Origin: Perkinsus olseni
Lineage: Eukaryota; Perkinsozoa; Perkinsida; Perkinsidae
Reading direction: 5' to 3'
Length of the DNA stretch: 64,000 bases
NCBI GenBank assembly: GCA_013115135.1
Contig: JABANP010000075.1
Location: 1 to 64,000, forward strand
Below are positions 3,160 through 46,346 of this stretch, one piece after another. The notes under the pieces are model-generated. The model did no database searches. It was not told the DNA's origin and saw nothing but the letters and a program-made list of their open reading frames with translations. The translations under genes were made by a program, and so were the position numbers. Within the stretch, counting starts at the first letter, position 1; every line of letters starts with the position of its first letter.

Positions 3160-5165
3160 TCATTTTCGACGTTTTTTCTCCCCCGGATTTTGCCGTCGTA
3201 TCTGCCTCTCCACACAGCTGGGGCAAATCCAAGTACCTTGACAGCAAAATGACCGCGCGCCACGAAATTCCGAAACCCTCACTGAAGTGCGCTCGTCGAG
3301 CATCTGCCTCGTTCTCCGGTGGTGGGAGGCCGTATCCTCGTCGTGCAATGTAGTCCTTCGCGCACCTGCAAGGATACCGTCCTGAAGCGTATCTTTTGGT
3401 ATCTTTGCTGCTCACTGTGGATGCCACCATTGAACCTTGCACTTGTCACCTCTATCACAACCAACCATATACGACCCATCATCCGGCTTCTTGCACACGC
3501 ACCATAACTGACCAGGGTCAACGTAAGGTTCACAGAGCGAGACAGCGCGTGCTCCTTTCGCGCGCCACGAAAATACTCTTGCCAAATCCCCACAGGCTGC
3601 TACGAGATCACGAAAGGGTATCAACCCTTACCTCGGTCGACGGCTCCGGACTGGGCACCGTCTCCGTGTCATGAGCAGACTCCGTGACCTAATAACAGTT
3701 ACCATACCACTCCTCCCACAACTCCTAAGCGAATAAGGCTCACCGAATCAGGCTCACCGAATCACTCTTCGTATCACGAGGAGATGACGTTGAAGTCCCT
3801 GTAAGTCTGATCTTCTTCGTTGTAGGGGCAGTCGGCGTTTCCTACAAAAAATTAACAAGTCACAGCGGAGCGATGCGACCGCAAAGTCGTTCCTCAACCG
3901 ATCGCATCATTCCAATACCACACCATCCCTAATTCTTCAATTCCAGCAAACCACGAGAAAATTTCCCCTTCCCACTGAGCGACACAAATCCGTGGGAAAA
4001 AAGAAGCACGGATAACATGGAAGCCTTCACGACCGACAGTAGAAGCTTTCTTTACACCGGAAGGCAACGCCCAGCACCCGGGATCTACCAGCGTCACAGA
4101 GACCACAGGGCCATCCTATGCGGTTTCAAATTCACGAGGCGCCGAGTTTTCAACCACCACTATCCGCTTTCCACTTACATCATCAATTTCACTCGTGTTT
4201 GCCTCCTTCTGCTGAGCGGCGATCTGAAGCGGCTCGATCCGAAGGTCCCCGGTTCGATCCCACCGCCTGCTACCTCGTCCTCCTCTATGGCGGCCGCTGT
4301 TGCCACCACCTCTCCCACCGACTGCAACTCCGATCGGTCCTGAGAGAACCGACAACACCATTTTATACAGAGCGATTAATTGCAAAATGAATGGCGTATG
4401 TGAGTTTTAAGTCCAACGTCGACAGTACGGTTTTCCTAGACCAGCACCGATCTGCCTTTCTGAGGGGGGCAAGGAAGGCCCTTAAAATGAACGGCCAAGA
4501 TGATAATGATCACGACCGCTTTTACGAGAATACAAAATGTCAAATGCCTCTCAACCCGCACGAAAACTGCTTCCACAAGTGATTCGATCTCGGGACCATC
4601 ACCGCACTAGCCCTGCCGCCTACCTCTTCGACTGTGACGAGGATCTTCTGCACAACCGCCAGAACCTCTTTCCGCAACGACAACAGCTCATCTTCCCTAG
4701 CTTCTATTTTACTCAAAAGTTCCTCTGCCTCAGCCTTCATTTTGTCGCTTCTTGCTGCCCCGATTTCTAGATACCTACCACCCCGACTATCGACCGAGCC
4801 GGGCGAAATCGTCCAAAGCCAACTCTTGATCTCACGAGAAAAAATATCTAATTTTCATCAACGCCTACCTATCCACCCAAAAGTGAGCCCATCTTAGGAA
4901 TTCCTAGTAGGCCGTGGGAAACGCAGTTCTATTCACGCACAGACGTTTCCTGGACTATAACAACGAAGAACGAGCAGGAGCAATACTCAACTTCCAATAA
5001 TTTACTAATGTCCGGTCTAAGGCCGATACCAAATGTCCACCAAATCCCCCATCGGCACTACCGCTGGTTCGCCTCGTCCAACTCGAGTTCGACCTCGTCG
5101 GCTCGTTGGGAAAGATATCGCACTAGATCCAGTTCCCTTCTTATGATGGGACCACTGACGTACGT
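3160..5165 (-). CDS. PHD-finger protein with N-terminal coiled coil (ING-like layout)
   Basis: The C-terminus is a PHD finger, a zinc module that reads histone H3 tails. The last three exons join in phase: upstream exon ending at 3416 (WCVCKKPDDGSYMVGCD, then DKCKVQWWHP), 3365-3283 (CAKDYIARRGYG), 3236-3160 (TWICPSCVERQ, basic tail, TGA). Introns are 50 and 46 nt. Cys and His spacing fits Cys4-His-Cys3. Farther upstream on the same strand are linker exons rich in P, S and T (about 3775-3850), a strong coiled-coil exon at 4560-4760 (EELLSKIEAREDELLSLRKE) and another near 5090-5160 (RRELDLVRYLSQRADEVELE). Coiled coil plus C-terminal PHD is the ING-family plan, but I did not resolve every join, so the 5' limit and the ING label are tentative. 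The 46-nt intron at 3237-3282 carries the shared introner-like core. Confidence 0.62.
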
Positions 5166-5593
5166 AAGATACCTGCTCGCGTGCTGCCCAGCCCATTGCT
5201 CGACTCATCCAGCGCGCCATCCAATGGTGAGATCTTGATTAGTCATCAATTCATAGACCTCATTCTCAAGTAGTTATTCACGCGAAGGAAAATTTCTCAA
5301 GTTTTCTCAATGGAAGGGTATCTTTTAACCTCGTATATCTCACCGGTGTAACTAAGATACCCCTATTACTCGCTGAGCCCATCCATGGCCAATTGAGCAT
5401 TCATGGCCGGGGAAGCATTGTCGGCCGTTGCGGTCATTGAAAAAAGGAGAGGAGGCTAACCACCGGATGCCCACCTCCACTATTCACGCAACTCAAAGAC
5501 CACCGTAAACAGAGACAGTATTTTTATATCAGCACGCCTTACTCGAATCCTTGCAGCGAGTCGTGTGCCTGAAAACGATGCCCATCAGAGCAA

Positions 5594-12219
<6,626 letters not shown>

Positions 12220-12357
12220 CCTTCCATACAGGAAATTCCAAGCCCAGCAAATCTCTAGGTAGCGAGTTCTACTGGCGACCCGAAACGCCCTCATGAAAGT
12301 GACCGAAAAGCCATCGCCATAAAACCACAGAAAGCATCCCTCCCCCGCACTCACTAC

Positions 12358-12549
12358 CTGGTCCATCCTCGAGGTTGGCTCCATAGTAAAGCAAAACCTT
12401 TTAACCTCCACAAAGCACTGCGGAAGCTGCTCTGGTCGATCAATCCCACCTCGACGCAGCAGGTCTCGGAAGTCGGAACCTGAAACCACCAGAAGCGGTT
12501 CCTGGGCGAACTCGCTCAGAATGGCAACCTCGGGACGATGAAACGAATC
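12358..12549 (-). CDS. Coding exon of an unidentified gene upstream of NSF
   Basis: A 64-codon open stretch is bounded by an acceptor (GGGCAG) and a donor (CAG/GTAGTG), phase 0 at both ends. It includes EVAILSEFAQEPLLVV and DLLRRGGIDRPEQLPQCFVE. I do not recognise the family. A further phase-0 acceptor (CTACCTAG) would add a short C-terminus ending in a TGA that overlaps the first NSF exon. Upstream exons are not resolved. Confidence 0.4.
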
Positions 12550-13403
12550 CTGCCCTCAGGAAAGTTATACGCGGCAATTTATTTTGCGAATTTTCGATTT
12601 TTCTGTAAAAATTCCATTAATCCTGCTTAGTCTTATCATGAAAATTAGTAAGAAATAACTGTTCGTTTTCTGTAAATTGGCAAACACATCATCGAAAAGA
12701 AAAAACAGAAAAAACCCATCTGAGTTCGTCAAAAAAATTCTCCGTTGATGCTGCTTCCGAAATGATACGCCTCGTTCGACCTAGTACGGATAAATATCTG
12801 AAGCCTAGTAAACGCGAAAGATTTTTGCGTAGCTCAGTATGTTCAACCTTAACGTATTCTTTACTTCAAAAAACATCATCCGCGGCTGACGTAGTGCACA
12901 ATTATTGCGCGGCCATTTCGATAATTTCACCAACTACCAAATAGTGCGCTTCAATTCGAAACGGTGGTTGTTGAAGTTCTCGTCTGGAGCTTTCAAATGA
13001 AAACTCTGACAGCGACAGAAATTTTGCGAAAACAGAAATTTTCATCATCTAGCCATTCCCTGAGGACGTCACAACCCTTAAGAGAACCCTCAATCGTCGC
13101 CTCTCTACACCCATCGATGAACTACCATTGCAATAAATCCTGTTTGTGAATGCCAGGTCTTGGCCGGGCAAATTATCTGCCTGAAGGGTGATAGCTGTGG
13201 CGTTGCTGGAACGACTTGCAGGCTCTCTTGAAAGGGGAGGGGCGCGCATGAGGAAAAATACACAACTAAAACGGATATAGTATCGCAGGAAATTACAGAT
13301 CCATACCAAATTATCCGCAACTTCTCGTCGAGTGCGCGCGTGAGTTTGAAGTTCAACGCCGACAGTACGACCAGCGTCGACGTATATTTCTGAATAGAGG
13401 CAG

Positions 13404-13635
13404 GCGACAGTACGGGTACGGTCTAGCACGGGTACGGGTACGAGTACGGCTCCGTAACCGTGCTACCCGTCGCAGCGGTTCCCAAGTACCGTACTGGTAC
13501 GCCGTACGTGAAGTACGGCGTAATTCAATACACGTATGCGTTGTTTAATATAGTATATACGTACTAGTTCTCCGTACCCGTGCTAAGTTGACAGTTTGAA
13601 ACGTACTCCATACCGTACTTTCGACCCCAGTACGG
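13404..13635. repeat. GTAC-rich degenerate array
   Basis: About 230 bp dominated by GTACGG, GGGTAC and TACGTAC words in both orientations. The flanks (CAACGCCGACAGTACG on the left, TTTCTGAGGGGGGC on the right) recur at 4405-4470 without the array, so the array appears to be an expansion inside a copy of a dispersed sequence. Confidence 0.8.
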
Positions 13636-14917
13636 TTGCCCAGCTCTATTTCTGAGGGGGGCCTGCTCATGAAGCCAAGAAAAATTGGTATCAGAACAAG
13701 GCCATCGTGACCCGGGGGTACTCCCTTCCCTCCCCGGACAATCTGCCAAATTGCACCGCTACTAAAACTAACATCAACAGCCTCTCCCCGCTAACCAACT
13801 ACGAAGAGGACGCGTCGACCGAGACGATGAAATTATCCGAAGAATTCGGAGATGTTCCCCCTGGCCCGGTCTTATCGGCAGAAGCTCCCCAGTGTCATTT
13901 TGAAGGCACTGGAGGAGACTGATCGCCCCACCCCTGTCAAGATTCAGAATTGCCTCTCCCAGTTTAATATCTATTATGATCGATATGTTCTCGATTCAAG
14001 CACCTGATCCCACTCGACGGCCATCGACTGGGTCCATGAATTCCCCAACTCCAAAGTTTCGAGAAAGGGAATTCGGAAGTTCAAATTTGAGAAGGGGTTT
14101 AGAGTCCCAACCCAAAATAAGAATCTGGCCCGATTCATCACTATCGCCCTCCCAGAACAAAGCGAGAACAGCGCTCAGCACCAGAGTTGTTTTTTCCAGC
14201 GTCGTTCACGGCATTTACCAACGACGATCTACCTACCATGTCCCATTCTCGCCCGTATTATGTATTTCCGAGTCATGGTCACACATCACGACCGCGGGTT
14301 CGACCCTGGGTGGTCCATTTTGAAGAACTAATTAGCATCTAGATGCTGCTAGTACGAGAGCGTATCGACCGTGGCCACCTTGACACGAGATCTCAGGATT
14401 TGACGATGTGTCACGAGAACGGCGCACGGCAGCGCTGAATGAGTGACTTTACAGCATGGCAGCGGTTAGACAAGGCACCGTGTCGTCCATCCGCAGTCCC
14501 ATGTGGTCGAATTCCTGTTCCACTCTGTGACTGACTCTGAATGCTCAGAGACAAATAACAACAACAAAAACAACGAACGATGCGAGTAAAGGCATGATGA
14601 CATAGACGAGGGCGAGCTCCTCATGAAAGCTACCTCACTAGCATCACCATGGTCGAGTTTCCTATAGTCTTGTCTTTGTCAATCGACAGTCGGGGGTAGC
14701 CATGAATACAATTATCGATCGATATTCACCGCAAATTTTGAGGCAAGCTCGAGGCTACCTTCTCGACTCTGACGAAAATAGCGATCGAGTTACAACCCAG
14801 GTGTCAATAATAGGTTATTCTGTCCCAGCGCTCACCACTGTCGAGTATGGCGACGGTTGAGTGGTAGTGAAAAATAGAGTCTAGTAAAGAGGAAAATATC
14901 GGTAATGAATTGCCCGC
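13636..14917. other. No supported gene
   Basis: Short open frames only. No family motif or consistent splice pattern seen. Confidence 0.4.
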
Positions 14918-15016
14918 GGGTGTTCAACAGCCCTCCCAGGATCGTCTTTTACACGTTAAAATCAATCCTGCGAGCGCTGCTGGACGCCAGGAGAGGCAGT
15001 AGTGTTTTGAACACCC
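14918..15016. repeat. Nested-palindrome short repeat, copy 2
   Basis: 99 bp. Outer arms GGGTGTTCAA and TTGAACACCC are a perfect 10-bp inverted repeat. Inner arms CTCCCAGGAT and ATCCTGCGAG form a second hairpin. Close relative of 26873-26968. Confidence 0.8.
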
Positions 15017-15288
15017 CCAACAATACTGTAGATCTGCCTTCGGGTACTCTTCAGTGGACCAGAGCACTCGGGGTCGCTTCTTACACGGTTACTTTGATTA
15101 TGAAGGTTCTCGTGAAGCTCAGTCATGCTTCTGTAGCGGTTCTAAGGCTCACGAAGGGTGTCATACAGGTGCGCATGATATCATAATCGATTACAATGGC
15201 GAGCGCTAATCTAAGATAGCTCTATCATTGAGCCTGCGTACCCCTCACCCTCACACACCGCAGCTCAGAAGGGCGTGATAAGCAGACA

Positions 15289-17220: not shown

Positions 17221-17339
17221 CTACACCATTTCCAGACCTACTTAGTAAAACCCCAGACCAATTTGGGGTTTTACTAACTTGGGCTGGGCTTCATTAAATT
17301 GCTCTGGGTTTTTCCTAAGTAGGTCTGGAAATGGTGTAG
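17221..17339. mobile_element. MITE with perfect 25-bp terminal inverted repeats
   Basis: The ends CTACACCATTTCC... and ...GGAAATGGTGTAG are perfectly complementary over 25 bp (17221-17245 with 17315-17339). A second inner palindrome (TAAAACCCC/GGGGTTTTA) lies at 17246-17275. The 119-bp length, no coding capacity and TA dinucleotides near both ends suit a Tc1/mariner-derived MITE with TA target duplication. Confidence 0.85.
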
Positions 17340-27163: not shown

Positions 27164-30100
27164 TCATAGCTCCCGAAGTCGGGTGTCACCTAGACAAAAA
27201 AATCTTGGCTGTGCAAAGAATCATGCCAACACTGAACGCAATAGAACTCATACCACACCTTCCGCAACTCATACCGGAAGAATGTCTCCCCTACCAGGCT
27301 CTCTGGATGATAAGGCTGTCTATGGCTGTCCACCCTCGGGCGTCGATACTTGCTCTTGTACTCCGCTGTGAAGAAGCCTATCGTGTAAAAGCCGACCCCA
27401 AACAGGGACCACCAAGTAACCAGACGCCAGCCGTAGACCAACGCCTGCGTGGACCCCTCAAGGCTTGCCGGGCTCCTGATGTTGATGGAGACGGTCGGCG
27501 GCCAAACTCGCGTAACTCAGACTTACCCGAATCGATCCATCACAACGCCGGACAGGAAAGGCGCTAAGAAATAGCCAAACAAGTTGTAGATGAGCATCGA
27601 GAATGCGGAGCTGAATGAGCGCATATAGGCTGGTACGGTGGTCATGAGCACCTAAAGCGTAAAAATTCATGAATAGGAATCAGAAAAAATCATAGAAGAA
27701 CACGAAAAACGCGAAAAATGAAAAAAATATGGAAAATCGTAAAAGAATCATAAAAAATACCAACAACTATAGACATTCATGAGTAACAATAATAAAAAAA
27801 TCATAAAATAACGCGAAAAAATGAAAAAAATCACGAAAAATCGGAAGAAATCATAAAAATTCGTAAAAGAATCATAAACAATTACCAACAACTATCAAGA
27901 AGCAAGAACGATCCGGAGAACTCAACAGCCTCGAGGATTCCTCGCGAGCCTATCATTCCTCGTGAAAGGCACACGCGTTGAGAAATCGCAAGATTGCAAG
28001 ATGCAGTCACCTAGCAGTGACGAGTCGCTCAACCACGGATCTCTACGAGCCCCATCGTCCCATAAATCGATCATCCGGGCGAGCGCTGAGCTTACCCCGA
28101 CGCATATAGGCATCAGTGAACCGCCGGCGAAGAGGCATATCCAGAGTGCTCCGACGAAGGTTTCAATATCGGTGACCATTGACGAGGCGATAGCCATGAT
28201 CTGAGACACACAAACTACGCCCGGGAAAAGCCGCCAAAATCGTCGGAATCGGGTAATAATTTCCGAGATCGGGTATAATTTCCCCGTACGTAAAACCGAT
28301 GAATAACTGTCAAGTTAGATTTCTCTATTTTAAACCATTTCTCGATCTCATAAAAACGCCACTCGGAGCCGCGTTATTACGCCGTGTAGGTGCAATTTTC
28401 AACTACCGAATCTTCCGACCACTAGCCTGCTCACCCACCTTACCGCGGATATCAGAGCGAAGCACAGGGAGAGCTTTAGTGATATCAACTGGGAGCCGCC
28501 TTTGTAGCCACCGAGCTTATCACAAGACCATCCGCCAAACCATCTGAAACCACATACAGTCGGTTTCCTTTCCTTCTCCCATCACTATCTTCACACCGAC
28601 CCTAGATTCCCATTGGGAACGCAAAATTAAAAAAATACTTCAACAGTTTTCCTAAAAAACCTGGCGATTTTCTCTTACCTTGAACGCACAGTGTGGGATG
28701 ATTTCCATCACGTTTAGAAGGAATCGGAAAAGGTTCTCTCGAGCTTGAAAACGGAGGAAAATATGAAAACCACTTTTCACATCGGTGAAAGTCATTCAAG
28801 CCGGCTCCGGCGTTGGACTACAAACCCACACACCGAGGTTGAGCTAGGCTGTTACAAAAAAGAAGATACTCCACCGAATCTTACACTCCCAAGGTCGGGG
28901 CCGTCGAGCTAACAACTGTGAAGAAGAGAACAACCGCTATCCGAGACACGTGGAAAATCACCATACAGTACCTGAACGACGACGCACCACCTGAGAATCT
29001 TTCGCATCCGTGTAGCGCAAGCATCAACCTCACACAAAAATCCGATAGAAAACAATACCCCGGGGCACGCGTTATCGGGAAAAAAGATAAAGTCCAAACC
29101 GCGCAAGATTGACAGAAATCCGGTTAGTGAGAAAAAGGTATCTTTAGTCCTCATGAAAAGCCAGCTTCGACCTACTGCATAACCCAGTACTGAATCCCCG
29201 TGACAACAAAGTACAAGGCGCAGAGCGCGAAAGTCATACAAACGAACCTGAAAAAGGTATCCAAGGTTGACCCGTGCGCCGGACAGAAAATAAACTGTGA
29301 CTCCGACAGTATCGCGCAAATGGCGAAACGGCTTTCACCCTAAGTTAGGTTCGATACAGAAAATCTACTCAATTTCCATTCTAATAATAACATACCAGTT
29401 CTTTCCCAACTATACTTCCTTCTTTTCATATGGGTGTATGGTCATCGCTCACACGCAAAATACCCGGCATATTCATCTCCATTCACACGTCGATCCCCCA
29501 AGCAATATCTTCTGAAACGGTTAGCCCTTTGCGGTCTTCCGGTAAGAAGAGTTTTCCTGCGCATGCCGGTTGTCTGCGTCGCTCCGTCGTGATTTTCCTC
29601 ACATCAAAAATCCAATGAAAACACGGTATAGCGAAAAACGCAAAAATTCGAAGAAGCAGTCATTTCTCTCAGCCTTCTCATCAACGCTCCGCTCGAGTAT
29701 TTTCCCAGTTGGACATGAAAACTAATCCAATAAGATTCCTTCCGCTGAGTCTTGCTCGGTCAGGGTGATATCATAAGCATGGGAAAAATGACCGTGCCTA
29801 GGTTCGAACCCGGCTGATGTCCTCACGAAAACTACGCAAGTAAAATAGCCGATTGAAGCAAAACATGAAGGAAAATGGAACCATATTTCTCACACGCCCA
29901 TCTTAAAATCGCCCATAAACCCGATACCGATAGGAAGCGACTAGCCGATGCAATTTTACCGCGCGCCACGAAATTCATCCACAACAATCCGCTTACAGTG
30001 GCGATGACAGGAGGCGTTTCAATTGGGCACCAAAACCTTTCGGCGGGTGATGCTCTTTGCCGGAGCCGAGCAAACTCTGACGAGGTCCGGGAGAGAAGGA

Positions 30101-33914: not shown

Positions 33915-35060
33915 TCAAACCAACCCCCAAAAGCGCCGCCCTTCTCCACTACCTTCCGCATCGCTGCTGTAGCGTCCCGCGGCCGGGCGAACAGAATCAT
34001 CATTGTCGGTGGTCATCGAAAGAACGCATGAAAAAACTACACCCTCCGAAAATTCCCCAACCTCATCACCAAAATTCCGCAATCTCCCCAGCGATCCTCG
34101 ATTGAGATGCTTACTCAAGCCGTCATCAAGGCGTGCCCCTCTGTCCCTGTTTCTACGCAACTTTTGCCTCAGGGACCTCCGCACTCTCGAAGTAAGTAAT
34201 ATATATGTACCAAAATTTTCGCTCGCCCGATTTTTCGCGAAACGGTCATCACGTTCACCCCCCTAAGCCATCCGCAGTAGTTTAAAACCTAAATATCCGA
34301 AATTTCCAGCCCCTGAGTCGAAAAATTCAGTGCGGGAGCCCCGCCAAAGTCTTCAAATGGCGAATACTGTACCTAGGCCGTTGCCGAGGCGTCCGGACCG
34401 ACTATTCGACATACATGGTCCGCTTCAGTTCCGGGATGCGGTCGCCTCACCGATTTCGCCCGGCCAGGTCAACTCGGGGAGCTCTGAGACCATCCACAGC
34501 CGGACAGTCTCCGTCCACCGGCGGTACCCCTCGAAAAAGATTCCGGAAATCTCGGAGCGATATTAAGTCTTCTTGGATCTCCGAAGTGACTCGTACAGAC
34601 CGGCGATTGTAGACGACAATAGGCTTCCGACGCCCATGTCAGTCCGCTGTGTTTTTGGGATCGCGGTGACGATTCGACACGATGGCAGCACCGATGTAGT
34701 GATTGAGAGAGAGGGCAAATATGTGTTGAACGACTCAACTGAGTAACCGTCCGAGGATGCGCGTTTTCCCCCGATTTTTCTCGCCAATACTGCCATAGTG
34801 TTATCTAATACTTACTATAATAATATCGTGAAATGATCCTATAACATGCGATGATCGAGAGTTGCGGTATGAACGCACTCGCAAGTTGCTACCTGTTCGA
34901 GGATGCTTCTCATATCGGATTTTCTCGTACATTTCTCGCAAATTTTCCCGGAAACGGTCAAAAATGTTCTCATCAACGACCCCAAAAGCCGTCGATTCAT
35001 CTCGCACCTCATCACTCAACGCCAAATCGATCGTGGTGGAAACGTCGACTCAGAAGCCCA
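33915..35060 (-). CDS. Uncharacterised coding exons between MFS and RPB11 genes
   Basis: Three open segments with plausible splice signals lie on the minus strand: near 35060-34950 (STTIDLALSDEVRDESTAFG, VVDENIF), 34610-34451 (VRVTSEIQEDLISLRDFRNL, ending CG/GTGAGG) and 34184-34090 (a basic segment, KLRRNRDRGARLDDGLS). I recognise none and cannot show that they belong to one gene. Confidence 0.3.
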
Positions 35061-35246
35061 TCCGTCCAGCAGCCGCAGTCACGCCGGTTCCCGACATCCC
35101 TTGGTAGGCCTTCAACGACCGGTCAAACTCTTTCTCCAACTGCAATCAACAACACAAACAGTGCCGTGTCGTATCTTTTTTTCCGCAAAACTCATGAATC
35201 AACCTCTAAGGAAGCTACCTATAATTGCCATGATAATCAGCACGCG

Positions 35247-35866
35247 TCAAGGGTACTTCCGAATTGGTGACGAACCGCTCAACGAATTAGCCTCAAAAAC
35301 CGATTCACCCTCATACTGGACGAAGCGATGTGTAAAAAGGTCCGCTAAGCGCGTTAAAAATACTAAAAATGCGAAAATGGAAACTAGGTCGAGCAATAGA
35401 GAAGATACCTCCTCCCGTTACTACCTGATCGCCCTTCGATCTCAGCGACTTCAACGCTTCCTTCATCGCCTCCACCGGGGTCGTTTCTGAGCAACATACC
35501 GTAGCGGCCGGTATTTCCAGCCGAAAAACCAGAGTTGTTCGGCTGTCAGTAAAATCCTAGTAAAAACATCGGTAAATTCCGCCACCAGTAAAATAAAGAC
35601 ATCGTCTCCACGACAGAATCCTCCCTCCCAACTCACGCGACGTAACTTGCACTCTCATCAGCAATTTGTTCTCCAAAGGATGTGGCACCTGAATATGCCA
35701 ACCTCGCACAGACGAAAAGATACTCCCGATCGTCACCTTATAACCAGCGAACTTGACTTGTCGATTTCGCAAGAGTTCCGTTCGCAGGGCATGTGCAGCC
35801 GTGTGGTCCTCCAGCCATATAGTAAACGTACCCGTATTATCTTGACGAAGCTCGGGCTCGTAGTAA
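35247..35866 (-). CDS. RPB11: RPB11-like RNA polymerase II subunit (5' end missing)
   Basis: RPB11 pairs with RPB3 to start RNA polymerase II assembly (homologous to half of bacterial alpha dimer). Four exons join in phase: 35866-35737 (TFTIWLEDHTAAHALRTELL then KFAGYK), 35688-35637 (VPHPLENKLLMRVQVTS), 35486-35425 (TTPVEAMKEALKSLRSKGDQ), 35315-35247 (TGA). Introns are 48, 150 and 109 nt. The phrases EDHT...LR..LL, AGYK-VPHPLE and TP.EA are diagnostic of RPB11 rather than AC19. About 20-25 N-terminal residues are not found; the exon should lie in 35.9-36.3 kb, where a 67-bp duplication occurs. Confidence 0.85.
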
Positions 35867-35967
35867 CTACGGATTAGTGAGTAGTTCGACCAAAACTTAT
35901 CAAATTTCAATCCCGCTGGAGCACGAAAATCACGATACGGGATGAAGCACTCCGCAAATTTCACTCA

Positions 35968-36262
35968 GAAATGAATTTCATATTTTGAAGAAAACCGTTT
36001 TCTTCATCAACTGTTGACTCTGAGCCCCCTGACATCACTACTCATAATATGTACCGCAGTATCACTGTTGTTCGTCGTTGGTGTTCAACACATTTCTTGC
36101 GAGAGTTTTTAACAGACAATCGGGTGGCTCACGCACAGTAAACTGCACACTGAACGTCGCGCGAGCTCCGCGCCTTCGTCCCGAAGACCTAGTAATGAAT
36201 TTCACATTTTGAAGGAAACCGTTTTCATCATCAACTGTTGACTCTGAGCCCCCTTGACATGC
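35968..36262. repeat. Short direct duplication (about 67 bp, two copies)
   Basis: 35968-36034 and 36192-36262 share AATGAATTTCA.ATTTTGAA and TCATCAACTGTTGACTCTGA with few differences. The spacer is unrelated. The copies flank the expected RPB11 5' end. Confidence 0.75.
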
Positions 36263-37258
36263 GCGTTTCCCCCTCTCAGTCTATTCAACAGACCGAGGCG
36301 ATAGACAGCTATGGACTCTATTGAGTATATTAATGATAGTCGGTCTTGCCGCGAATTTCGCGAGGAAAATACTAACTCTAACAAACTACTCCGTCTCCCA
36401 ACGCAGAGAAAGCAACAATTACGAAAATCGTTCCAAAATTATTACGGATAATCATTACCAAATTTCCACCCCATCATTACATTCTCCTCTCTCCGCCATG
36501 CAAATGCTCATCGCCCTCCGGCAGCTGCAGAATCTCGTCAGGATCAGGCTTGTTCTCAGAGATCAACTGCCCCGCATGCATCGCCATGGTGGGGCAAAGA
36601 GAAAGGAAATTTCTGATCCGAACTTTTTTCCCTGAAAAATCCTAATATTTTCCAATTTTCCCGTATTTTCGGAAAAATTTTGGTGTGTACACAGTTACGA
36701 TTAAACTGATCTTAGCTGTCGAGATTTTTTCATCACGCAGTAATAGGGGCTCGAACTCGAGGCAACCTGAGAAACCCAGTAAAGAGCCTTAATAGCCAGG
36801 CTCCTTGCATCGGTGCAAAGCACGAACGCATGACGTAAAAAACGGTCAACGATTTCGAATGAAATTCACAGCTAACACTTTACGATTTTACCGCAGCCGA
36901 ATACAACTAAGACAAACTCAACAACCACAGTTCGAAGAACTTGATGAGAGAATCGAAATCGGTGATAAAATTCAATAACCGTGACAATAGCGAAGTACTC
37001 GCCGTTAAAGACAACATTGATGACCAGGTCATCATGACCAGACTCCGACGGGGAATTGAAAAACTACAGGCTACACTCGAAGCAGAGGACAGGGGAAATT
37101 GTCGCACCAACACCGAGCAAGCGGAGGTTGGTTTGCATGTGAACTCGGCACCATGTATCTCAAATACAGGCGTGGTTAAAGAGGAGATGCTGGTTCAAAG
37201 ATGATTGTAGGCGTGCTTGAAGATGCTGTGTAAATGTATACCATGAATAGAGGTCTCT
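36263..37258. other. No firmly supported gene
   Basis: A plus-strand frame at 36941-37204 (VIMTRLRRGIEKLQATLEAE) looks protein-like but has no start context or family. A tRNA-like stretch lies near 36745-36800, minus strand. Confidence 0.3.
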
Positions 37259-37311
37259 CCAGTGGTTGGGAGGTTTATTAATACAGTATTTGTAAACCTC
37301 CCAGCCACTGG
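37259..37311. repeat. Long hairpin (19-bp arms, one mismatch)
   Basis: CCAGTGGTTGGGAGGTTTA at 37259-37277 pairs with TAAACCTCCCAGCCACTGG at 37293-37311 around a 15-base loop. Possible foldback element or structured RNA. Confidence 0.8.
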
Positions 37312-37593
37312 AAAACCGGTTCAAAGTGACAAATAAGTTCTCATTCAGAGCTTGCGAAATCCTTGAGAGATCTCTCGTAAGCTGCCACCAACCATTCTCC
37401 GCCAATCAAGAGTAAAGTCTGTTTTCTGAGGCAAAAAGTAGAATCGCGAGGAATGGTATTTGGCCCGCCTTGGATTGAAGCATTGTGAGTTCGGACGGCA
37501 GTAGAACGAGAGTGTTCGTAGCTCGGGTGTAAGGCTGTTACGCCTTAAAAAAAGTTGACCAATGTTGAGATTATAGATAACGCAACATGACAA

Positions 37594-37612
37594 CTTGAGC
37601 CAAGATGGCTAC
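37594..37612 (-). other. Spliced-leader relic (perkinsid/dinoflagellate SL)
   Basis: The minus strand reads GTAGCCATCTTGGCTCAAG, identical to 19 of the 22 bases of the known perkinsid leader. It is followed by TTGTCATG rather than a GT donor, so it is not an SL RNA gene. This fits a leader copied back into the genome with a trans-spliced mRNA. A minus-strand open frame (37590 to 37345) follows it directly. Confidence 0.75.
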
Positions 37613-37682
37613 ATTAGTAACCGACCTCTCCTCTAGAACCTCTGACAATAAGTGCCTCTGTAAACCTCTAATGACAATAGCT

Positions 37683-38031
37683 TGTGGCGTGCGATGGCTC
37701 AGTTCTGTTCTCGCACGCCAGATATTTCATTGTGTGAAACGGCCGAGCTGAACTAAGCTCGACGCTAGTAGCTTTCACCGTTATCTGACCGAATCAGTGT
37801 GTGACTGATCGCTACTAGTGAGCCGCAGTATCGACCGTTCTCAGTGCCCTTCTTTTTCATTCTCTCTTTCTTCGATCCTCCCTTGGATCTGCTCCCTCTG
37901 ATCGTCAGCTCCCCCTGGTCGTCCGCTCCGTATTATCTGATCTGCTATCTGTACCTCTTCTATCTCCTGTGCGTCGTGTTCAACATGGAGACAGACACAG
38001 TCCCTTCCGGCGGACAAACTGGTTCGTCACA
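37683..38031 (+). repeat. 5' long terminal repeat
   Basis: 349 bp, begins TGTGGCGTGC and ends CGTCACA. Contains the gag start codon at 37985, so the first 15 gag codons lie in the LTR. Confidence 0.9.
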
Positions 38032-38861
38032 TTCTACCGGGATGCCAACTCTCCCGTCCCCCCAAGTCTCTGGTGATAACGACCCCCCTCCCCAGAACAC
38101 CGTTGATGCTAGTGCCTTGGAAGAACTACGGTCAGAGTTGTATGATGTTGTCGGTGATCTTGGTTTGAAGCTCGAAGGGATTTCAGACCAGTTGCGCCTC
38201 GCGGCGAATGCCCTGCCTCCTCCGACTTCCACTCCGGCCCCGTCAAACCCTTCACCACGCCCTGATCGTGAAGAAATCCGTGATCCTCATGCTCCTACTG
38301 ATGACCGACCGTCTCAACGCTTTCATGACCGTGTCAACAAGGTCCAGAAGGCTTGTGAAACTGCGAAGAAGGTCGAGGGTGGTGAGTACGAAGGTATGGG
38401 TGACCCGCGGTCATTGATGGTATGGGCTCAGAGTGTGAAGCAAGCCCCGCTGTACCAGTTCGGCGATTCTATCACCCGGTACTTCTTCGTCTTGCACAAC
38501 CTCAGCAGTACTGTGGAGAGTAACGTTCTCTGTGCCATTGACTTGGAGCAGGGGAGCCCGACCGTGTTCGAAGTGCGACACCGACTTTGAACGCCATCTG
38601 GAGTTGGTCTGGCATTATCTGTGTCGTGAGTACACGAAGTCCTGCTCTGGTCTCTTCGACTACTATCAGTCACTTCGTACTCTCCAACTTGCTGAGCCTG
38701 GCCACCGCCATTTCGAAGCCCACCTCTCTAAGTTTCGGTCTCTTGTCAGAGCCATTCAGACCGAGAAGCACTGTCCCTTGGACGACAGCGAGGTCAGCGC
38801 CTTCTGGTTCAGCAGTTTAACTGTGGCCGGTCAGCAAGATATTCTTCGTGCTCCCTCGTAA
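37985..38861 (+). CDS. Retrotransposon gag (capsid-like), frame change inside
   Basis: Starts METDTVPSGGQTG inside the 5' LTR; an in-frame upstream extension to 37844 is hydrophobic LTR leader and probably not translated. The Pro-rich, coiled segment (ELRSELYDVVGDLGLKLEGI) runs to TGA at 38588. Capsid-like sequence resumes in the +1 frame (FERHLELVWHYLCREYTKSC) and ends at 38861. Together this is a gag of usual size for the class. Confidence 0.7.
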
Positions 38862-40737
38862 TGAGGTTCGGACGTTCCCTCTCATGTGCGAGAGGGCCCG
38901 TAGCTTCTATGATGCCGAGTTCAAGTCCAGCTCTCTCGGCAAGCACGTTGGCATTGTGCAGTCTGGTACAGGGTGTCCGACTCCTCCTGTGATGACATCC
39001 TCTCCAGCGACTCAAGCTCAGCCACCTCGCTCTGGTGGTCGACCGATGCCCGCCCGTTACCCAACGGACCCTACAGCTCAGAGGCCCGACGACACTTGCA
39101 GTGACCCCGCCATCTTCTGCCTGGAGTTCCTCCGCAAGTTTAAGTGTCAACGTTGCCTTTCACATGCCCACGGTACTTCTCTTTGTCCCGAGATTCAGGT
39201 TGCCTTCCTGAACCTCCGTTGTCCCCAGTGTGGTGTACATCATGACCGACCGGTTGGTAACCCTGCCGCTCACTGTGCGGGTATCCAGTGCCACAGGTGT
39301 GGCGGTACTGGACACTTTGGGCGAGCTTGTCCGTGCCCTGAGCCGTCCAGGAAACGACCTCGTACTACTGCCGATCCCCCCAAGACCGCTGAAGTTAACG
39401 CCGTACACTTGGATGCCGCCTCCAAGAACTCTCGGCTGCAGCTCCTGGACGTTACGATCGGCGATTCTGATGGCACTACTTCCTGTTCGGCCCGTGGTCT
39501 CCTCGATTCTGGCTGTGAAGTGGCTCTGGTATCTGCTGATGAACTCGACCGTTGGCAACGTGCCGGTGTGTCCGTCCCCTTGCTCCCTGACGAGACCACC
39601 CTGATCCCCTTCGACGGTGCGCAGCGGCACAAGGTTCTCGGTCGTGGCCAAGTCAAGCTAACTCTCGAGGATTCTACCTCCATTGACCTTATGATACGAG
39701 TTGCCCCGCAGCTCAGCTACCCTCTGATACTGCCCCTCCATGTACTCCGCCTTGCTGGTGGTGCGGTATGGGTTATTGCCGACGACGACACTGGCAACGG
39801 CGACTCAATCTTCCTTCGACCTGATGTCCGTGGTCTTCTACGGCAGATGGTGGACCCCGGGACTGATCTCAAGAAGCTCGGCTTGGGTACCTACACCACT
39901 GACTTACTCGACCGTCCACTTAGTGTGAACTCGGTTGGTGCCCACTGCCCCACTGGACGTGATGAAGACCTGCTCGACGACTACGTCGATGTTCCCCGAC
40001 ACGCTGACCAACTACTGCCGGTAACCCTGGTCCCTGACCGTTCCGCCCCAGACGGTCGACCATCGGTCTCTGTCCCTTGGCGCTCGTCTGACCGTCCCAA
40101 GCCCAACTACGCTCAAGCCAAGGCTCGTGATGCTAGTGTTCTGCGACGACTTGATCCCCAACAACACCAGCAGTACAAGGCTTGTGTGGACTCCCTGATC
40201 GACGACGATATCGCGGTCCCCCTCGACGGTCCGTCCGAGAAGGCCTCCTACTTTATTCCTGCTGTGCCTATATTCCGACCGTCGTCTACGACACCGGTGC
40301 GTATCTGCTTGGATGCCAGAGCCGTCAACCACTTTATCAAGCCCTTCTCCATCCGCGGTCGCGCTTCCGGCAGCCTATGGTTCTTCCTGGTCAGTTGGCG
40401 CACTTGTCGGTACTACCAAGCCTGTGATCTACGTCAAGCCTTCTTGAGGGTGCACTTATCTGAAGACGATCAGCCCTTCGCCTGCAGCGTCATCTGTTCC
40501 AAGACGGTCCGTTATGCTCGCCTTCCGTTCGGACTGAACTTCAGTCCGCATGGTCTACACTCCTGTTACGATGTGGCACCGGTCGTCATGGAAGGAGGAT
40601 GTGGCTATGAACAGCGGCAAACCGGCTCGACCTCGACCGTTGATGTTCAACAAGCTCCCGACCCCAAGTTCCCCTTCACCCCTGACCGATGGCTCCCTGT
40701 CCCGACCGTCTATAACGGTGACTATTCTGCCCGCTAA
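38862..40737 (+). CDS. Retrotransposon nucleocapsid, protease and N-terminal reverse transcriptase
   Basis: Two CCHC zinc knuckles are seen (CQRCLSHAHGTSLC and CHRCGGTGHFGRAC, both C-x2-C-x4-H-x4-C), then an aspartic protease (LLDSGCEVALVSADEL, catalytic D-S-G), then RT fingers/palm (VRICLDARAVNHF, LRQAFLRVHLSEDDQPFAC, RLPFGLNFSP). The frame is continuous from the +1 transition at about 38850. After RLPFGLNFSP the RT continues in the next +1 frame, near 40548; the rest of this frame to 40737 is spurious. Confidence 0.85.
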
Positions 40738-43654
40738 GGACTCTTCGACTGGCCCGACCGTCCCCAAGAAGTTGGATATCGTCATTTATGTTGACGACTA
40801 CTGTATACGAGGCCACACCTTCATCGAGGTTATCTGCCAGCACGACTACACGACTTGGCGTCTGAGACGCCATGGTGCCGACTGTACTGAAGAGAAGTCC
40901 TTCAACAACGCCAGCCCTTCGCCGGCCGGAAACTACAAAGGAGTTCTGGGCTACTCGACCGACATTGGCGTGGATACGGTCTGCTTCCGTTATCCTGACC
41001 CCCTACCCGACTCTATTCCTACTCGCATCAGCCGACGCCAAGCAGTCTCACTGATCAACCGTTACTACGACCCATTGTCCCTCTTCATGGAAGGAAGTGC
41101 CCCGAGTCGGTTCATTCTCGCTGACATCAACCAGACTACCTCGGACTGGGACGCCCTCTGTAGTGCGGATGATACTAAGGCTCTCTATGACTGGCTTCGG
41201 ACCGTGAACGACCAGCAGCCTGTGCCCCGGTTCGTCGACCTCTTGGACAACCTCAATGTCTTTGCTGACGCCTCTCAGCTCGCATTTTGTGTCGATGTGA
41301 GAGGCATGGGCCCCTCGTATACCAGGTTATGCGGTCGATATGGTCTCTTTCCCCCTGCTCAACGGACCGGCCATACCATTGTCCAAAAGGAGCTCTGTTC
41401 TCTGCATCTTGCTCTACAGTTGCTGTCGGAAGTCGACTTGGTGAAACAGGAGCACGGACCCCGACCGAAGACTTACACGGTCTATACGGACTCCGAGATC
41501 AACTTACATCGGCTTCGTCAAGATCCCGTCAAGGACGACAAGCTTGGTCGCTATGAACGCCGCCGCCTTCGTCTTATCCGTGCCGAAGTAGCCAAGTTGA
41601 CCGCCTCTGGTGCCCCCGTGACCATTCGGCATATCAGTGGGTCCTGTAACCCCAGTGACGTCTGTACTAGGAGACCAACCCCTGGTACTGTTCTACTACC
41701 AACCGACCCCTCCACGATCGACAAAGGTGTTCAACTTAGTCCCGAGACCTTCGTGTATAAGACGCCCCCGGAGGGATTGGTTGGTCCCCACCAAGTTAAT
41801 ATCGTGCAGGCTGAAGACCAGGTGTTCGATGACTTCGTGACCATTCAGATGCTTCGGGATGGACAAGATGCGTCCGACCGTGTCAGTGCTATCAGACAAG
41901 CTGTCATTGACAAGAAAGACAAGTACCACAAGATCAACGACGACGGTTTGGTTGTCAGAGTCACGGCTGTGGACATCCCCGATGACACCGACGCCGCGAC
42001 TTCGGTGCTGGCTCAAGTATTAGTCCCGGACGCCGCTCTTCAAGTACGGCTCGCAAAGGCTGCTCATGAGTTCTCCCACCGTGGTCGTCGTGGTACTCTC
42101 AACCTCCTCCGCAAGGCCTACTTCTGGCGTAAGATGAGGACGACCGTGAAGCAGGTCTGTGACCAATGCCACCCCTGTCAAGTGAGCAAGTTTGACCACA
42201 TCGCTCGGTGCTCTCTCGGCTCTACCGTACCCTGGGCAGGATGCCTGGGCATCGGCCGGGTTGCTACGGTAGACGTCACTGGTCCCTATACCCACGGTCT
42301 GCGAGATCTCCAAGGCCACCTGCCCGAGAACCGACCGAACTTCGGAGTCACTGTGACCGATTTGATGACGGGTTATACTCGTGGGACTACGACTTGCACG
42401 AAGTCTTCGACCGAGATCTCTCAGGCGCTCGGTATCCTGTTCGACAGCTCTGATTGGGTGTCTGTTCTCATTGCCTCCGACCAGTGCTTCAGGTCTAGCG
42501 AGTTCCGCTACTGGTGCCAAGTCCACAAGATCTCCCTGGTGCTGTTGCCTTCTCACTGTCCAAGCCTGATGGGTCACGGCGAGAGAGTTCACAAGGAGAT
42601 CCACAACTACATGCGCATTGTGGCTCAACAGTCTGGTGGTCTGGATGACTGGACTGTGACCTTCCACCGTGCACTCCGTGTGGTCAATACTTGTCCGTAC
42701 ACTGACTCCGAGAACGATGGTGGTCTCTCTCCTCACGACATGCACTTCATCAACAAGGCCCGTATCCCTGAGATAGAACCTCTGGACCCCGCCCTTGGTG
42801 ACAAGTTGTACTCAGGTCTTGGCTCTGTCCCGCCTATTGCGCCCTTGGATGTCTACGAGGACGTCAATGCCATACGTCAGCAGCGTTGGTCCCAGTTCAA
42901 GTCCGGTTGGTTGGATCGTCGTGAGAAGACCCGTCTTGAAACTCTACGACGGCCTAGTATGCCTGACGTCAACCCCGGTGACTCGGTCTATGTGTGGCAA
43001 CCGATGACTAAGAAGCTGCTCTGGAGATGGCGAGGCCCCTATACTGTGAGGGCCGTCGACCATTCTATTGTTACCATTGACGGCAAGAACGGTCTAGAGG
43101 AGAAGGTTCACCTGGGCAACTGTCGTAAGGTCGACGTTGGTGATGTTGCTCCTAGAACGGCTGAGGACCCCGCCGAGGACGAGGTTATGACCGATGTCGA
43201 CAATGCTCTGCCGCCGCCCACTGACCGTTCGACGCCCTCTTCGGATGCTGAAGCCCCTGCCGAACCCGTCCCTACTGAAGAAGGCCCTACTCCGACCGTT
43301 CCCTCTACTCCCGATTCTGCCGACCCGACTCTGGACTCGAAATGTCGTCAAGCTCGCAGTCGCTTAGGTCTGGACATCGCCCTTGTGGAGTCTCATGATG
43401 ATGGTCAACACGATATTATGTACGGAAGGGTACTTGCGCTAGATGGCCCTCTTCTGACCGTTCAGCTCTACGTGGCCGATCCCGGTTCAACTGTCCCGAT
43501 CGCCACTGCGGCTGACTGCTTCCTCCCGACGACTACTCTAAGTCCTGATTTGGTCCGAGTCTTCGACCTTAGAAGTTCCGCCCTTCAAATGTTTACTTGG
43601 AGGATGCCCCCAACAAGGTCTATGGTGTCGAAGATGGACTCTCTTGATATATGA
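40550..43654 (+). CDS. Retrotransposon RT palm, RNase H and integrase
   Basis: One 1034-codon frame. RT catalytic box IVIYVDDYCIRG is near 40770. RNase H follows (FADASQLAF, then TVYTDSEINLHRL). The integrase has an HHCC zinc module (AHEFSHRGRRGTL ... VCDQCHPCQ), a DDE core (VATVDVTGPY, IASDQCFRSSEF, GHGERVHKEIHNYM) and a GPY/F-like C-terminal fold (LWRWRGPYTVRAV). The tail is acidic and Pro/Thr-rich. Stop is at 43652-43654, 83 bp before the 3' LTR. Confidence 0.88.
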   Translation: MVYTPVTMWHRSSWKEDVAMNSGKPARPRPLMFNKLPTPSSPSPLTDGSLSRPSITVTILPAKDSSTGPTVPKKLDIVIYVDDYCIRGHTFIEVICQHDYTTWRLRRHGADCTEEKSFNNASPSPAGNYKGVLGYSTDIGVDTVCFRYPDPLPDSIPTRISRRQAVSLINRYYDPLSLFMEGSAPSRFILADINQTTSDWDALCSADDTKALYDWLRTVNDQQPVPRFVDLLDNLNVFADASQLAFCVDVRGMGPSYTRLCGRYGLFPPAQRTGHTIVQKELCSLHLALQLLSEVDLVKQEHGPRPKTYTVYTDSEINLHRLRQDPVKDDKLGRYERRRLRLIRAEVAKLTASGAPVTIRHISGSCNPSDVCTRRPTPGTVLLPTDPSTIDKGVQLSPETFVYKTPPEGLVGPHQVNIVQAEDQVFDDFVTIQMLRDGQDASDRVSAIRQAVIDKKDKYHKINDDGLVVRVTAVDIPDDTDAATSVLAQVLVPDAALQVRLAKAAHEFSHRGRRGTLNLLRKAYFWRKMRTTVKQVCDQCHPCQVSKFDHIARCSLGSTVPWAGCLGIGRVATVDVTGPYTHGLRDLQGHLPENRPNFGVTVTDLMTGYTRGTTTCTKSSTEISQALGILFDSSDWVSVLIASDQCFRSSEFRYWCQVHKISLVLLPSHCPSLMGHGERVHKEIHNYMRIVAQQSGGLDDWTVTFHRALRVVNTCPYTDSENDGGLSPHDMHFINKARIPEIEPLDPALGDKLYSGLGSVPPIAPLDVYEDVNAIRQQRWSQFKSGWLDRREKTRLETLRRPSMPDVNPGDSVYVWQPMTKKLLWRWRGPYTVRAVDHSIVTIDGKNGLEEKVHLGNCRKVDVGDVAPRTAEDPAEDEVMTDVDNALPPPTDRSTPSSDAEAPAEPVPTEEGPTPTVPSTPDSADPTLDSKCRQARSRLGLDIALVESHDDGQHDIMYGRVLALDGPLLTVQLYVADPGSTVPIATAADCFLPTTTLSPDLVRVFDLRSSALQMFTWRMPPTRSMVSKMDSLDI

Positions 43655-43737
43655 TGAGAGAAACGGTGGATGATGAGTATGCATTTCTCTTTTGATTAAT
43701 TAGTCCTTAGTATATGTCGTCTATTTGGCCCGGGGAG

Positions 43738-44088
43738 TGTGGCGTGCGATGGCTCAGTTCTGTTCTCGCACGCCAGATATTTGATTGTGTGAAACGGCCG
43801 AGCTGAACTAAGCTCGACGCTAGTAGCTTTCACCGTTATCTGACCGAATCAGTGTGTGACTGATCGCTACTAGTGAGCCGCAGTATCGACCGTTCTCAGT
43901 GCCCTTCTTTTTTTCATTCTCTCTTTCTTCGATCCCCCCTTGGATCTGCTCCCTCTGATCGTCAGCTCCCCCTGGTCGTCCGCTCCGTATTATCTGATCT
44001 GCTATCTGTACCTCTTCTATCTCCTGTGCGTCGTGTTCAACATGGAGACAGACACAGTCCCTTCCGGCGGACAAACTGGTTCGTCACA
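43738..44088 (+). repeat. 3' long terminal repeat
   Basis: 351 bp, differing from the 5' copy at two bases and one 2-base T insertion. Ends at CGTCACA, after which similarity stops. Confidence 0.9.
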
Positions 44089-44810
44089 AACTCTATATCT
44101 TGCTACTCTCGCAATTCCTCAACGCAACTTTGGCCGAAAGACAAATCTCTATTCAGTAGTTGTTGTAATGTTGCGCCATTCATCCGTGGCCCTATATGGT
44201 ATCCGAGCTCACCCCTACACCCCACCAGGCCGTAAGAGCTGGTCCAAGCAGCATCTCAAGCTCCGGACGCCACGGCCGTTGACGGACAGATTTACGTAAT
44301 ACTCGAGGCGACTGTTGCTCGATCTGTAAAGGCAAATCTTCAAAAGCTATCGGACACATTCAATGACATTCACAAAAAACAAAAATATATCTCGTAAAAC
44401 ATCCAAGGGAAATCAGAGAATTTTCGTCAACTCAAACTTTGTTCACTATATACTCTTCGCTTCACTATGTGCACTTTAAGCTCAGCACTCAGAAATGACT
44501 TCGTTCAAACAGATCGAATGTGGGTTAGTCGGGGGCCTCGAGCGTTGATTGCTGATTCACGGCGGAGGTCGCCGGTTCGAATCCTGTCAAGCGTAACTCT
44601 CCTTCCTTCAGAATGGGCAACCTACACCCGAACAAGGAATGGTGGCGAGAACGTCGCGTCGCTCCGCCCACCTTCATGGGTTTTCCGGATGTTGCCAAAA
44701 TTGAGCTGCGGGGAGGCGAATTGTATGCCGAAAGAATGGACGGTAATTTTCCTCCTGCGACCCCGTGACGCCGATTAAAGTTCTTTACAGCCCCTACCGT
44801 TGCTATTATA
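44089..44810. other. Intergenic with tRNA-like relic
   Basis: At about 44555-44600 the plus strand has a box B-like GGTTCGAATCC with upstream tRNA-like sequence but no closed cloverleaf. TTCTTTACAG at 44781-44790 is a good acceptor just upstream of the next ATG and could receive the spliced leader. Confidence 0.45.
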
Positions 44811-46346
44811 ATGGCTAAGTGCCTGAAGGACAACATAGGGGCACCGGAGATATGGAACAAGCTGGTCTGGCGTGCTCAGCATCTGGCGTGTCGTTCGACT
44901 GAGCCGGAGATTTGCTATATATGGCGGGCTGTTAGTCAGCGAGATTGGTAGTAGCAGTAGTGGTAGTGGTAGTATTATTTGTAGTAGTGGGAGTAGTGGA
45001 AGGCGCGGTAGGAGTAGTACTGTGCTGATCATCGGCCATGATGAGCACAAGTCCACGGGAGGGTGGGGATAAAGGATAGTCTTACTCCTACATGCCATGT
45101 TCTGCCCAGCGACGTTCTTACCCTTAGTTGGCTATATATGAATATTTACGGTGAGAAATGGCGAGCTGCCAGCCACTGCCACTGGACGGGTTCAGGGCTG
45201 TCAATCTGAATAGATTGTGGCTATACCGTGTTCGCGTTGGCTCTACTCTTGAGCTCTTCGACCAACGCCTCTCACCGTTAGTGCTAGGTACGATTCTCAC
45301 TTCGTGGCCACCTTGCTGGGCCGCCTCGACCGTCGATTGCCCATGTTTGCAATTCATGACTGCAGTATTGCACTGGAGGGCTTCATTAACGATAAATTCA
45401 AAAATGAGAGGTGGGCCAGCGAGAATCCTTGTGCATTTTCGAGTGTCAAACGCTGCCATTCTGGCCAGGTACGAGCGGCGAATCTTGGACCAAATAGAGC
45501 TGCTGTTGGTGAATCGTGACGACTTCCGAGTGGACGGTTTGTGCAAGCTTGCCAAGAGTAATAGTCAGCTCCGAATGCCATGTTCCGTCGGATAATCGTT
45601 CGTGCTCTCCGTTGAATAACACCTAGTTTCGGGTCCGCGGGAAGCGAGAATAGCTCCTTCTAGTGGAGAGATCTCGATTCTTGTGAGTTGCGTGTCTGAA
45701 TAGAACGCACTGTAGCAATGCTCAGCATATTGTGGGAAATTGCGCCTTCGAGTGGCGTCACGGTAGTACTTACTCGCATGGTTAGGTCTTTATAACTATA
45801 GTGTGAGTGGTCCGTTGGTGGAAGTGGAAGCTGTGGAAATGCTCATGACGAAAGTAGCTGCTCATCTTACGGAGAGAGATCTCACGGTGAGTGTCTGAAT
45901 TTCGTGGCGCAGCGGTCACGGTATAGGTTCTACTTCAGGAAACTGACAGGTCGCTGTTGGTTGATACGGCAGAGGCAATTGCCTGGCGAGTTAAGAGGGG
46001 AGCTGGCAGCAAGAGGAAGCGTTACCCTTCGGTCATACTGGTAGCAGGGTTTGACGGAATCGACAGACTTTGCCGCGACACCGCTCCGCTGTCACCACAA
46101 TGTTGTGTAACTTGTAGAGTGGGCGGAAATCACAGTCTGTAGCGGAAAAAACTCTGAGTGCAGAAATGAGGCCACTTGTGAATTCCGTCATATTACATCA
46201 CGAAATCGTTCATTGGTAAAGTTGAAAGTTTTTCTGTTCAGCTGCGGACTATGTTAAGAGAACTGATAACCACACGGCCGGATGATAAGCCCTTCACCGA
46301 AGAGGAGCAGACTAAGATTCAGAAGGCAACCGAGGCACTCCGTTGA
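44811..46346 (+). CDS. Unassigned multi-exon protein
   Basis: Exons that I can support: 44811-44947 (start MAKCLKDNIGAPEIWNKLVW), about 45158-45290 (LNRLWLYRVRVGSTLELFDQ), about 45304-45470 (LGRLDRRLPMFAIHDCSIAL), about 45470-45595 (ARYERRILDQIELLLVNRDD), to 45886 (VEMLMTKVAAHLTERDLT), from 45939 (ETDRSLLVDTAEAIAWRVKR, YPSVILVAGFDGIDRLCRD), and about 46245-46346 (LRTMLRELITTRPDDKPFTE, TGA). The helical, Leu-rich repeats recall alveolate mitochondrial FASTK/RAP-type RNA-binding proteins, but I cannot confirm this. The first intron contains the GTA/GTG microsatellite. The 52-nt intron 45887-45938 carries the introner-like core. Confidence 0.5.
44946..45022. repeat. Imperfect GTA/GTG trinucleotide microsatellite
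   Basis: About 75 bp of GTAGTAGC, AGTGGTAGTGGTAG and GTAGTAGTGGGAGTAG in the first intron of the flanking gene. Confidence 0.85.

Follow-up and report, generated by a model that had tools for sequence, protein, structure and literature searches.

The 64,000 nucleotides analysed here (positions 1 to 64,000 of Perkinsus olseni contig JABANP010000075.1, assembly GCA_013115135.1; hereafter the window) hold short introns of unrelated genes that carry the same core sequence, F1, which a preliminary description of this DNA had proposed as a candidate introner-like element. We found F1 to be strongly enriched in introns across a larger sample of the genome, and the reading we favour, with about as much confidence as doubt, is that F1 is a very short dispersed repeat of the Perkinsus nuclear genome, one of several micro-repeat families, which spreads at the DNA level and then decays neutrally. 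Its status as an introner is unproven, and by an evenly balanced judgement we file it as a dispersed micro-repeat with a preference for introns.

Abundance and extent of the F1 unit

The consensus of F1 is (K)AATTTCGTGGCGC[A/G]GYGRY, a unit of ~18–20 bp with sharp edges, outside which the flanks of different copies are unrelated. Information content across 92 copies was 0.85–1.8 bits in the three bases 5' of the exact 11-mer and at most 0.24 bits beyond three bases before or four bases after it. The 3' end comes in three subtypes, with no extra base in 61 of 83 copies, an extra A in 16 and an extra G in 6. Searches of the genome (61.5 Mb, 968 contigs) retrieved 1,931 exact copies of TTTCGTGGCGC (977 and 954 by strand) and 521 of GAATTTCGTGGCGC (264 and 257), about equal between strands in both cases, compared with 11 (8 and 3) and 0 for the respective reversed controls. 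These controls rule out chance as the source of the copies, and the preliminary description was right to call the identity of the cores unexpected by chance. Nor are the copies parts of larger duplicated stretches, because their flanks differ from copy to copy. Among unselected copies the ratio of one-mismatch to exact copies (23 minus a background of 6.4, to 37) suggests ~4% divergence per site, the same order as between paralogs (see below). It thus seems that the copies share a genuinely short unit and are not what erosion has left of a longer element.

RNA folding revealed no excess structure in F1 introns (mean z 0.26, 36 introns), as measured against shuffles that, like those used below for the all-against-all search and the pattern counts, preserve base composition only. 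The GC clusters of yeast mitochondria are comparable as short palindromic repeats, some tens of bp long, that look mobile, but they are mitochondrial and form hairpins. Three F1-like copies stand in tandem with a 19-bp period at 3809–3860 of locus L030.

F1 copies in introns

Genes were predicted in a 336-kb sample by a purpose-written hidden Markov model trained on the same 336 kb, with the coding score of the F1 motif masked. Most loci of this sample were picked for holding GAATTTCGTGGCGC; the 64-kb window was not picked for F1. The gene finder called 727 introns (median 51 nt) and divided the sample into 173,439 intergenic, 120,684 exonic and 41,904 intronic bases. Its length model favours ~50 nt and has a ceiling of 110 nt; an earlier variant that allowed introns up to 400 nt made many long, doubtful calls and was dropped. 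The model misses introns, one in a PHD-finger gene of the window among them, and retains some extra residues, which are visible in the AAA and MPP-beta alignments.

Introns held 40 of the 93 exact F1 copies in the sample, exons 11 and DNA outside genes 42, compared with circular-shift means of 12.4 for introns (standard deviation 3.2, maximum 23, 2,000 shifts) and 31.6 for exons (minimum 19). With this strong intron enrichment and around two thousand exact copies in the genome, the earlier observation of one core common to introns of unrelated genes on both strands was borne out. The preliminary description had also named matches lying mostly outside introns as evidence against its proposal, and on this point the same counts are borderline, given that the finder misses introns. 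The five exact copies in the window were assigned by the finder to an intron (one), exons (three) and DNA outside genes (one), and one of the 'exon' copies, that of the PHD gene, is intronic by domain evidence. Twenty-eight of the 40 intronic copies were in sense and 12 in antisense orientation (p=0.017). Among the 37 copies outside the type used for locus selection, 14 were intronic (8 sense, 6 antisense). The core lies anywhere from 4 to 83 nt from the donor and from 2 to 78 nt from the acceptor, and its flanks within the intron are unrelated.

Protein alignment backed the removal of F1 introns in nine genes, among them the NSF and PHD genes of the window. In 6 of the 10 spliced proteins tested, the F1 junction falls within a Pfam domain match (a kinase in L006, RRM in L031, an AAA lid in L045, peptidase M16 in L053, a hydrolase in L051 and eIF3c in L036), and no Pfam domain reaches the junction in L018, L042, L043 and NSF. 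NSF aligns across its junction to solved NSF structures, and the MPP-beta, AAA and eIF3c proteins likewise align over theirs to solved chains. Chain 9fq7_3A, a mitochondrial processing peptidase probably of P. marinus, differs very little from the L053 protein. The kinase gene of L050 has four F1 copies, all in sense orientation, and its hand-spliced protein aligns through three of the junctions; two of these three alignment-backed introns exceed 100 nt by our reading. L025 has two neighbouring introns, each with F1. As judged from these predicted proteins, the alignments show F1 copies leaving with GT-AG introns of conserved genes.

Divergence of F1 between paralogs

When the sequence surrounding F1 copies was set against the rest of the genome, 13 focal copies had a close partner (partner loci L057–L071). 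This gave 16 comparisons, not all independent, with two partners each for NSF, L006 and L020. An F1 copy was recognisable in all 16, even where the flanks had diverged by 19% and 24%, and no gain or loss of a copy was seen among these paralogs of one genome. The core differed at 16 of 288 positions (5.6%) and the flanks at 151 of 2834 (5.3%). Because most focal copies had been chosen for an exact core, a correction was needed, which put the expected number of core differences at ~10 against the 16 seen (7.9 against 11 without L028). The core diverges like its flanks, and selection on F1 is therefore not supported; overall, selection does not maintain the core in these comparisons. Decay of the core was seen in the NSF paralogs and in C675. 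At position 4968 of L020, the 3' end of F1 reads GCGAA and that of paralogs C454 and C202 reads GCGGT, two adjacent changes between known subtypes.

These comparisons bear on the idea that F1 is a selected cis-element, either a splicing enhancer or a DNA-binding site, kept by introns and intergenic regions. The very sharp core with its optional one-base spacer and degenerate end speaks for such an element, as does the sense excess in introns. The core was, moreover, unchanged in 8 of the 16 comparisons, including L022/C801 at 19% flank divergence, L040 at 9% and L039 at 8%. Slower change than in the flanks, which such an element should show, was nevertheless not found; differences in the core exceeded expectation, the NSF and C675 copies had decayed, and both orientations occur. 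We also found no branch-point motif that F1 could supply; the 519 introns lacking F1 showed no clear consensus for one. We consider a selected cis-element improbable.

Other repeat families in introns

An all-against-all search of the 727 introns found that 198 match another intron, compared with 10 after one shuffle. Once same-locus pairs and pairs with matching 100-bp flanks had been removed, 179 introns shared sequence across loci, against a mean of 5.4 (range 2–10) in ten shuffles that kept intron ends. F1, with up to one mismatch, is present in 44 of the 179, and 135 of 682 introns share sequence without it. In the unselected window, 12 of 83 introns share sequence with introns of other loci. 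Simple family patterns gave a similar picture, with a family in 151 of 727 introns (7.4 when shuffled) and in 7 of 83 in the window. This multi-family picture is an important extension of the F1 finding.

F2, GTATCTTAGGTTGA...AAGATACAGAATAGGTC, is an imperfect palindrome of ~40 bp whose first 14 bp occur 758 times in the genome (control 0), partly in tandem arrays. Such arrays lie at 1614–1900 of L035 and at G000 C21:122158–122741, with periods of about 40 and 38 bp. A loose F2 pattern matched 193 times in real and 59 times in shuffled sequence, D-type hairpins matching it too. F3, TAGCGGAGCGAAGC, has 405 copies genome-wide (control 1), and its shorter word GCGGAGCGA occurs in introns 16 times in sense and 9 times in antisense orientation. 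F4 is a motif resembling the T-arm or B-box of transfer RNA (tRNA), GGTTCGANYCC, and is found in 32 of 727 introns in both orientations (L006, L017, L018, L019, L030, L036 and others). Smaller intron-sharing families were designated D–G.

In four introns of 51–57 nt (L029_5322, L023_1453, L022_5219 and L006_335), F2 with its tail reaches, by our reading, to within ~10 nt of the donor and 4–7 nt of the acceptor. Because it nearly fills some introns, F2 is a better introner candidate than F1.

Comparison with introners

The repeats could be recognisable parts of intron-creating elements, with F1 an atypical and F2 a typical family of introners proper, a possibility that we keep as the main alternative to our reading but entertain only tentatively. 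The preliminary proposal of introner-like elements stands in so far as similar sequence recurs in introns of unrelated genes (40 F1 introns among 727, besides the wider sharing described above), further families behave alike and copies are spliced out by the evidence of the nine aligned genes. F1 introns that are no longer than others, the sense excess, the concentration of sense copies in the L050 kinase, the neighbouring pair in L025 and the near-complete filling of four introns by F2 all agree with it. What was not supported for F1 was similarity extending to the splice sites, since the core alone is shared and its distances to both boundaries vary. No target-site duplication stands out in 83 F1 copies (the best direct-repeat z being 2.7 among 168 boundary choices), and terminal inverted repeats of 4 bp reach z values of up to 5.7 but in 1–2 of the 83 copies only. 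Neither of these features of miniature inverted-repeat transposable elements thus extends beyond 1–2 copies at F1. Presence/absence of a copy between paralogs was not seen (0 of 16 comparisons), and 53 of the 93 copies lie outside introns by the gene finder.

A more specific proposal, that several ultra-short introner families of 18–45 bp built a sizeable share of the ~50-nt introns, appears doubtful to us. On this view F2 would fill the whole intron, whereas F1, F3 and F4 would each be the seed of an intron that took its other bases from elsewhere. Introners of this size would, to our knowledge, be smaller than any known.

The introners surveyed by Gozashti et al. (2022; PMC9860276) resemble F1 in that similar sequences recur across many introns of unrelated genes. 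Their criterion is similarity to near both splice boundaries, whereas F1 shares ~18 bp in mid-intron and is excluded by that criterion. The all-against-all intron search at E 1e-5 described there would probably miss an F1-like core. 'Perkins' does not occur in the main text of that survey. Introner elements have been reported in the related lineage Amoebophrya (PMC7789003), which adds to the case for introners; there, too, families are many and inverted repeats occur (compare F2). The Amoebophrya elements differ in being non-canonical introns with direct repeats of 3–5 nt over the boundaries and inverted repeats of 8–20 nt between the intron ends, whereas F1 introns are GT-AG and no flanking repeats were found. 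Fungal introner-like elements (PMC4457414) are alike in forming repeated introns in unrelated genes but comprise hundreds of near-identical whole introns, where F1 is only a core. Introns of P. marinus have a median of 49 nt and are 99.3% GT-AG (PMC7789003), and range from 39 to 1622 bp, mostly <100, in comparisons of complementary and genomic DNA (Zhang et al., 2011; PMC3101222). In the portions consulted of the literature on Perkinsus introns, motifs, genome assembly, short introns and repeats, we found no description of the F1 family, and a search for introners together with Perkinsus brought up, among the papers covered, just the Amoebophrya work.

A possible tRNA-like origin

The preliminary description had noted that one F1 copy fits the box A of RNA polymerase III promoters, which raises the idea that F1 is the A-box half and F4 the B-box half of sequences derived from tRNAs or from short interspersed elements. 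The fit holds for the extra-A subtype (16 of 83 copies), the word CGTGGCGCA is common to F1 and a tRNA-Arg gene of the same genome, and T-arm/B-box motifs are present in the 32 introns with F4. In the remaining 67 copies, however, the A needed for an A-box is missing, and the AATTTC part of F1 is equally conserved yet does not belong to an A-box. No B box was seen beside F1 in the short F1 introns inspected, although no systematic search for such pairing was made. We regard an origin of this kind as highly improbable.

F1 as a dispersed micro-repeat

Under the dispersed micro-repeat reading that we favour, F1 would be copied at the DNA level, in both orientations, by a route that leaves no target-site duplication. 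Copies would settle mostly in introns and intergenic DNA, those in introns would be removed together with the host intron, and all would decay neutrally, no slower than their flanks. Part of the host introns may have arisen together with a repeat.

Several observations weigh against this reading. F1 introns are not longer than others (median 52 versus 51 nt, p=0.57), which speaks against plain insertion into introns already present, although the comparison is weakened because the gene finder favours ~50 nt and stops at 110. Neutral settling alone does not account for the excess of sense copies, weak as this is (8:6) among copies not of the type used for locus selection, and the core remained unchanged in half of the paralog comparisons, as listed above. 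Nor are we aware of a mechanism by which units of 18 bp are copied. No model fits fully, because insertion predicts longer introns and no sense bias, introners predict shared ends and selection predicts slow decay.

The source of new introns is an open question, on which repeats like F1 bear. About a quarter of the predicted introns, and a smaller share without F1 or within the window, have short repeats in common with introns of other loci, in units that standard introner searches would be too coarse to pick up. If these repeats do build introns, intron-building elements have so far been undercounted. Even if they merely settle there, no known mechanism obviously explains how an 18-bp unit came to lie at ~2,000 places with no target-site duplication.

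F1 copies and related features of the window

All six copies listed by the preliminary description are present, at 3267 (-), 3572 (-), 5620 (+), 6019 (-), 29973 (-) and 45900 (+). Their settings, with two F2-related features, are as follows.

3237..3282, minus strand: F1 intron of the PHD-finger gene, 46 nt, GTGAG...CAAG; TTTCGTGGCGC starts at 3267
3366..3415, minus strand: 50-nt second intron of the PHD gene, among the gene finder's calls; F2-like AGATAC and GTATCC pieces, no F1
3555..3573, minus strand: F1 copy in an open frame upstream of the PHD finger; context ambiguous, exon by the gene finder
5619..5636, plus strand: F1 copy antisense to NSF, probably coding (LRAPRKA), just before intron 5569–5615
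5991..6038, minus strand: F1 intron of NSF, 48 nt, core diverged to TTTCATGGCGC; called by the gene finder and supported by NSF chains
10442..10460, minus strand: F2 copy (TATCTTAGGTTGACCC) outside predicted genes
29941..29996, minus strand: candidate F1 intron, 56 nt, GTAAGC...GGCTAG, proposed from sequence only and not called by the gene finder
45887..45938, plus strand: F1 intron of the extra-A subtype (TGGCGCAGCGGT), 52 nt, called by the gene finder

The PHD intron at 3237–3282 had been placed by reading frame, and its removal together with 3366–3415 indeed yields a full PHD finger. The joined protein reads WWHPQ-C...S-TWICPSC, and the Pfam PHD match (1–47/47) spans both junctions, at E=1e-4 and with a score of 22.7 bits that falls slightly short of the curated 24. 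An alignment to one solved PHD chain likewise runs across the junction of 3237–3282, an intron that the gene finder did not call, labelling the copy as exon. The further copy reported near 3558–3572 is an F1 copy, but with its frame open and labelled exon its intron status is ambiguous.

In NSF, the proposed intron at 5991–6038 was supported: the gene finder calls it, and once it is spliced out the protein matches NSF structures without a break at the junction. Two paralogs have this intron in common, and their core carries two other changes. The second NSF intron of the preliminary description, at 5602–5647, was not upheld. Both paralogs have GG in place of its AG, the reading frame continues uninterrupted across the copy, and an intron at 5569–5615 fits all three genes. 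Since the acceptor is absent in both paralogs and the 18 bp at 5619..5636 are identical in NSF and paralogs C164 and C525, this F1 copy is best read as coding and probably lies in the NSF coding sequence. A tRNA-Val(TAC) gene at 6335–6407 (-; Rfam, 67.2 bits) is situated within the NSF gene region, apparently in a same-strand intron, and is found in all three NSF paralogs.

The candidate intron ascribed to an MFS gene at 29941 has the GT...AG ends but no gene finder call. For the one at 45887–45938 the finder returned exactly the ends proposed, and the only Pfam match was sub-threshold.

Spliced-leader loci and other observations

A spliced-leader (SL) variant, CCGTAGCCATYTTGGCTCAAG, matches the genome at 146 places when one mismatch is allowed (control 0); together with the size of the introns, this points to Perkinsus. 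At 2155–5767 of L024 there is a cluster of U1, U2, U5 and two equally scoring U4 small nuclear RNA genes with an SL gene, and an F1 copy lies ~65 bp upstream of the latter. A role of F1 in the promoters of SL or small nuclear RNA genes found no support, as there is no close copy in the 130 bp upstream of U1, U2, U4a and U5 in the same cluster. Four SL loci (L009–L012) share a block ~80 bp upstream of the SL that contains GTGCATGCGTGCACCC or a close variant, and GCACGCATGC is found upstream of U2 in L024.

Elsewhere in the window, an open frame at 40538–43651 (+) has the domains of a Pao-type retrotransposon (Peptidase_A17 and integrase zinc-binding), and two open frames, at 49668–50480 (-) and 53714–54451 (-), match DUF6740.

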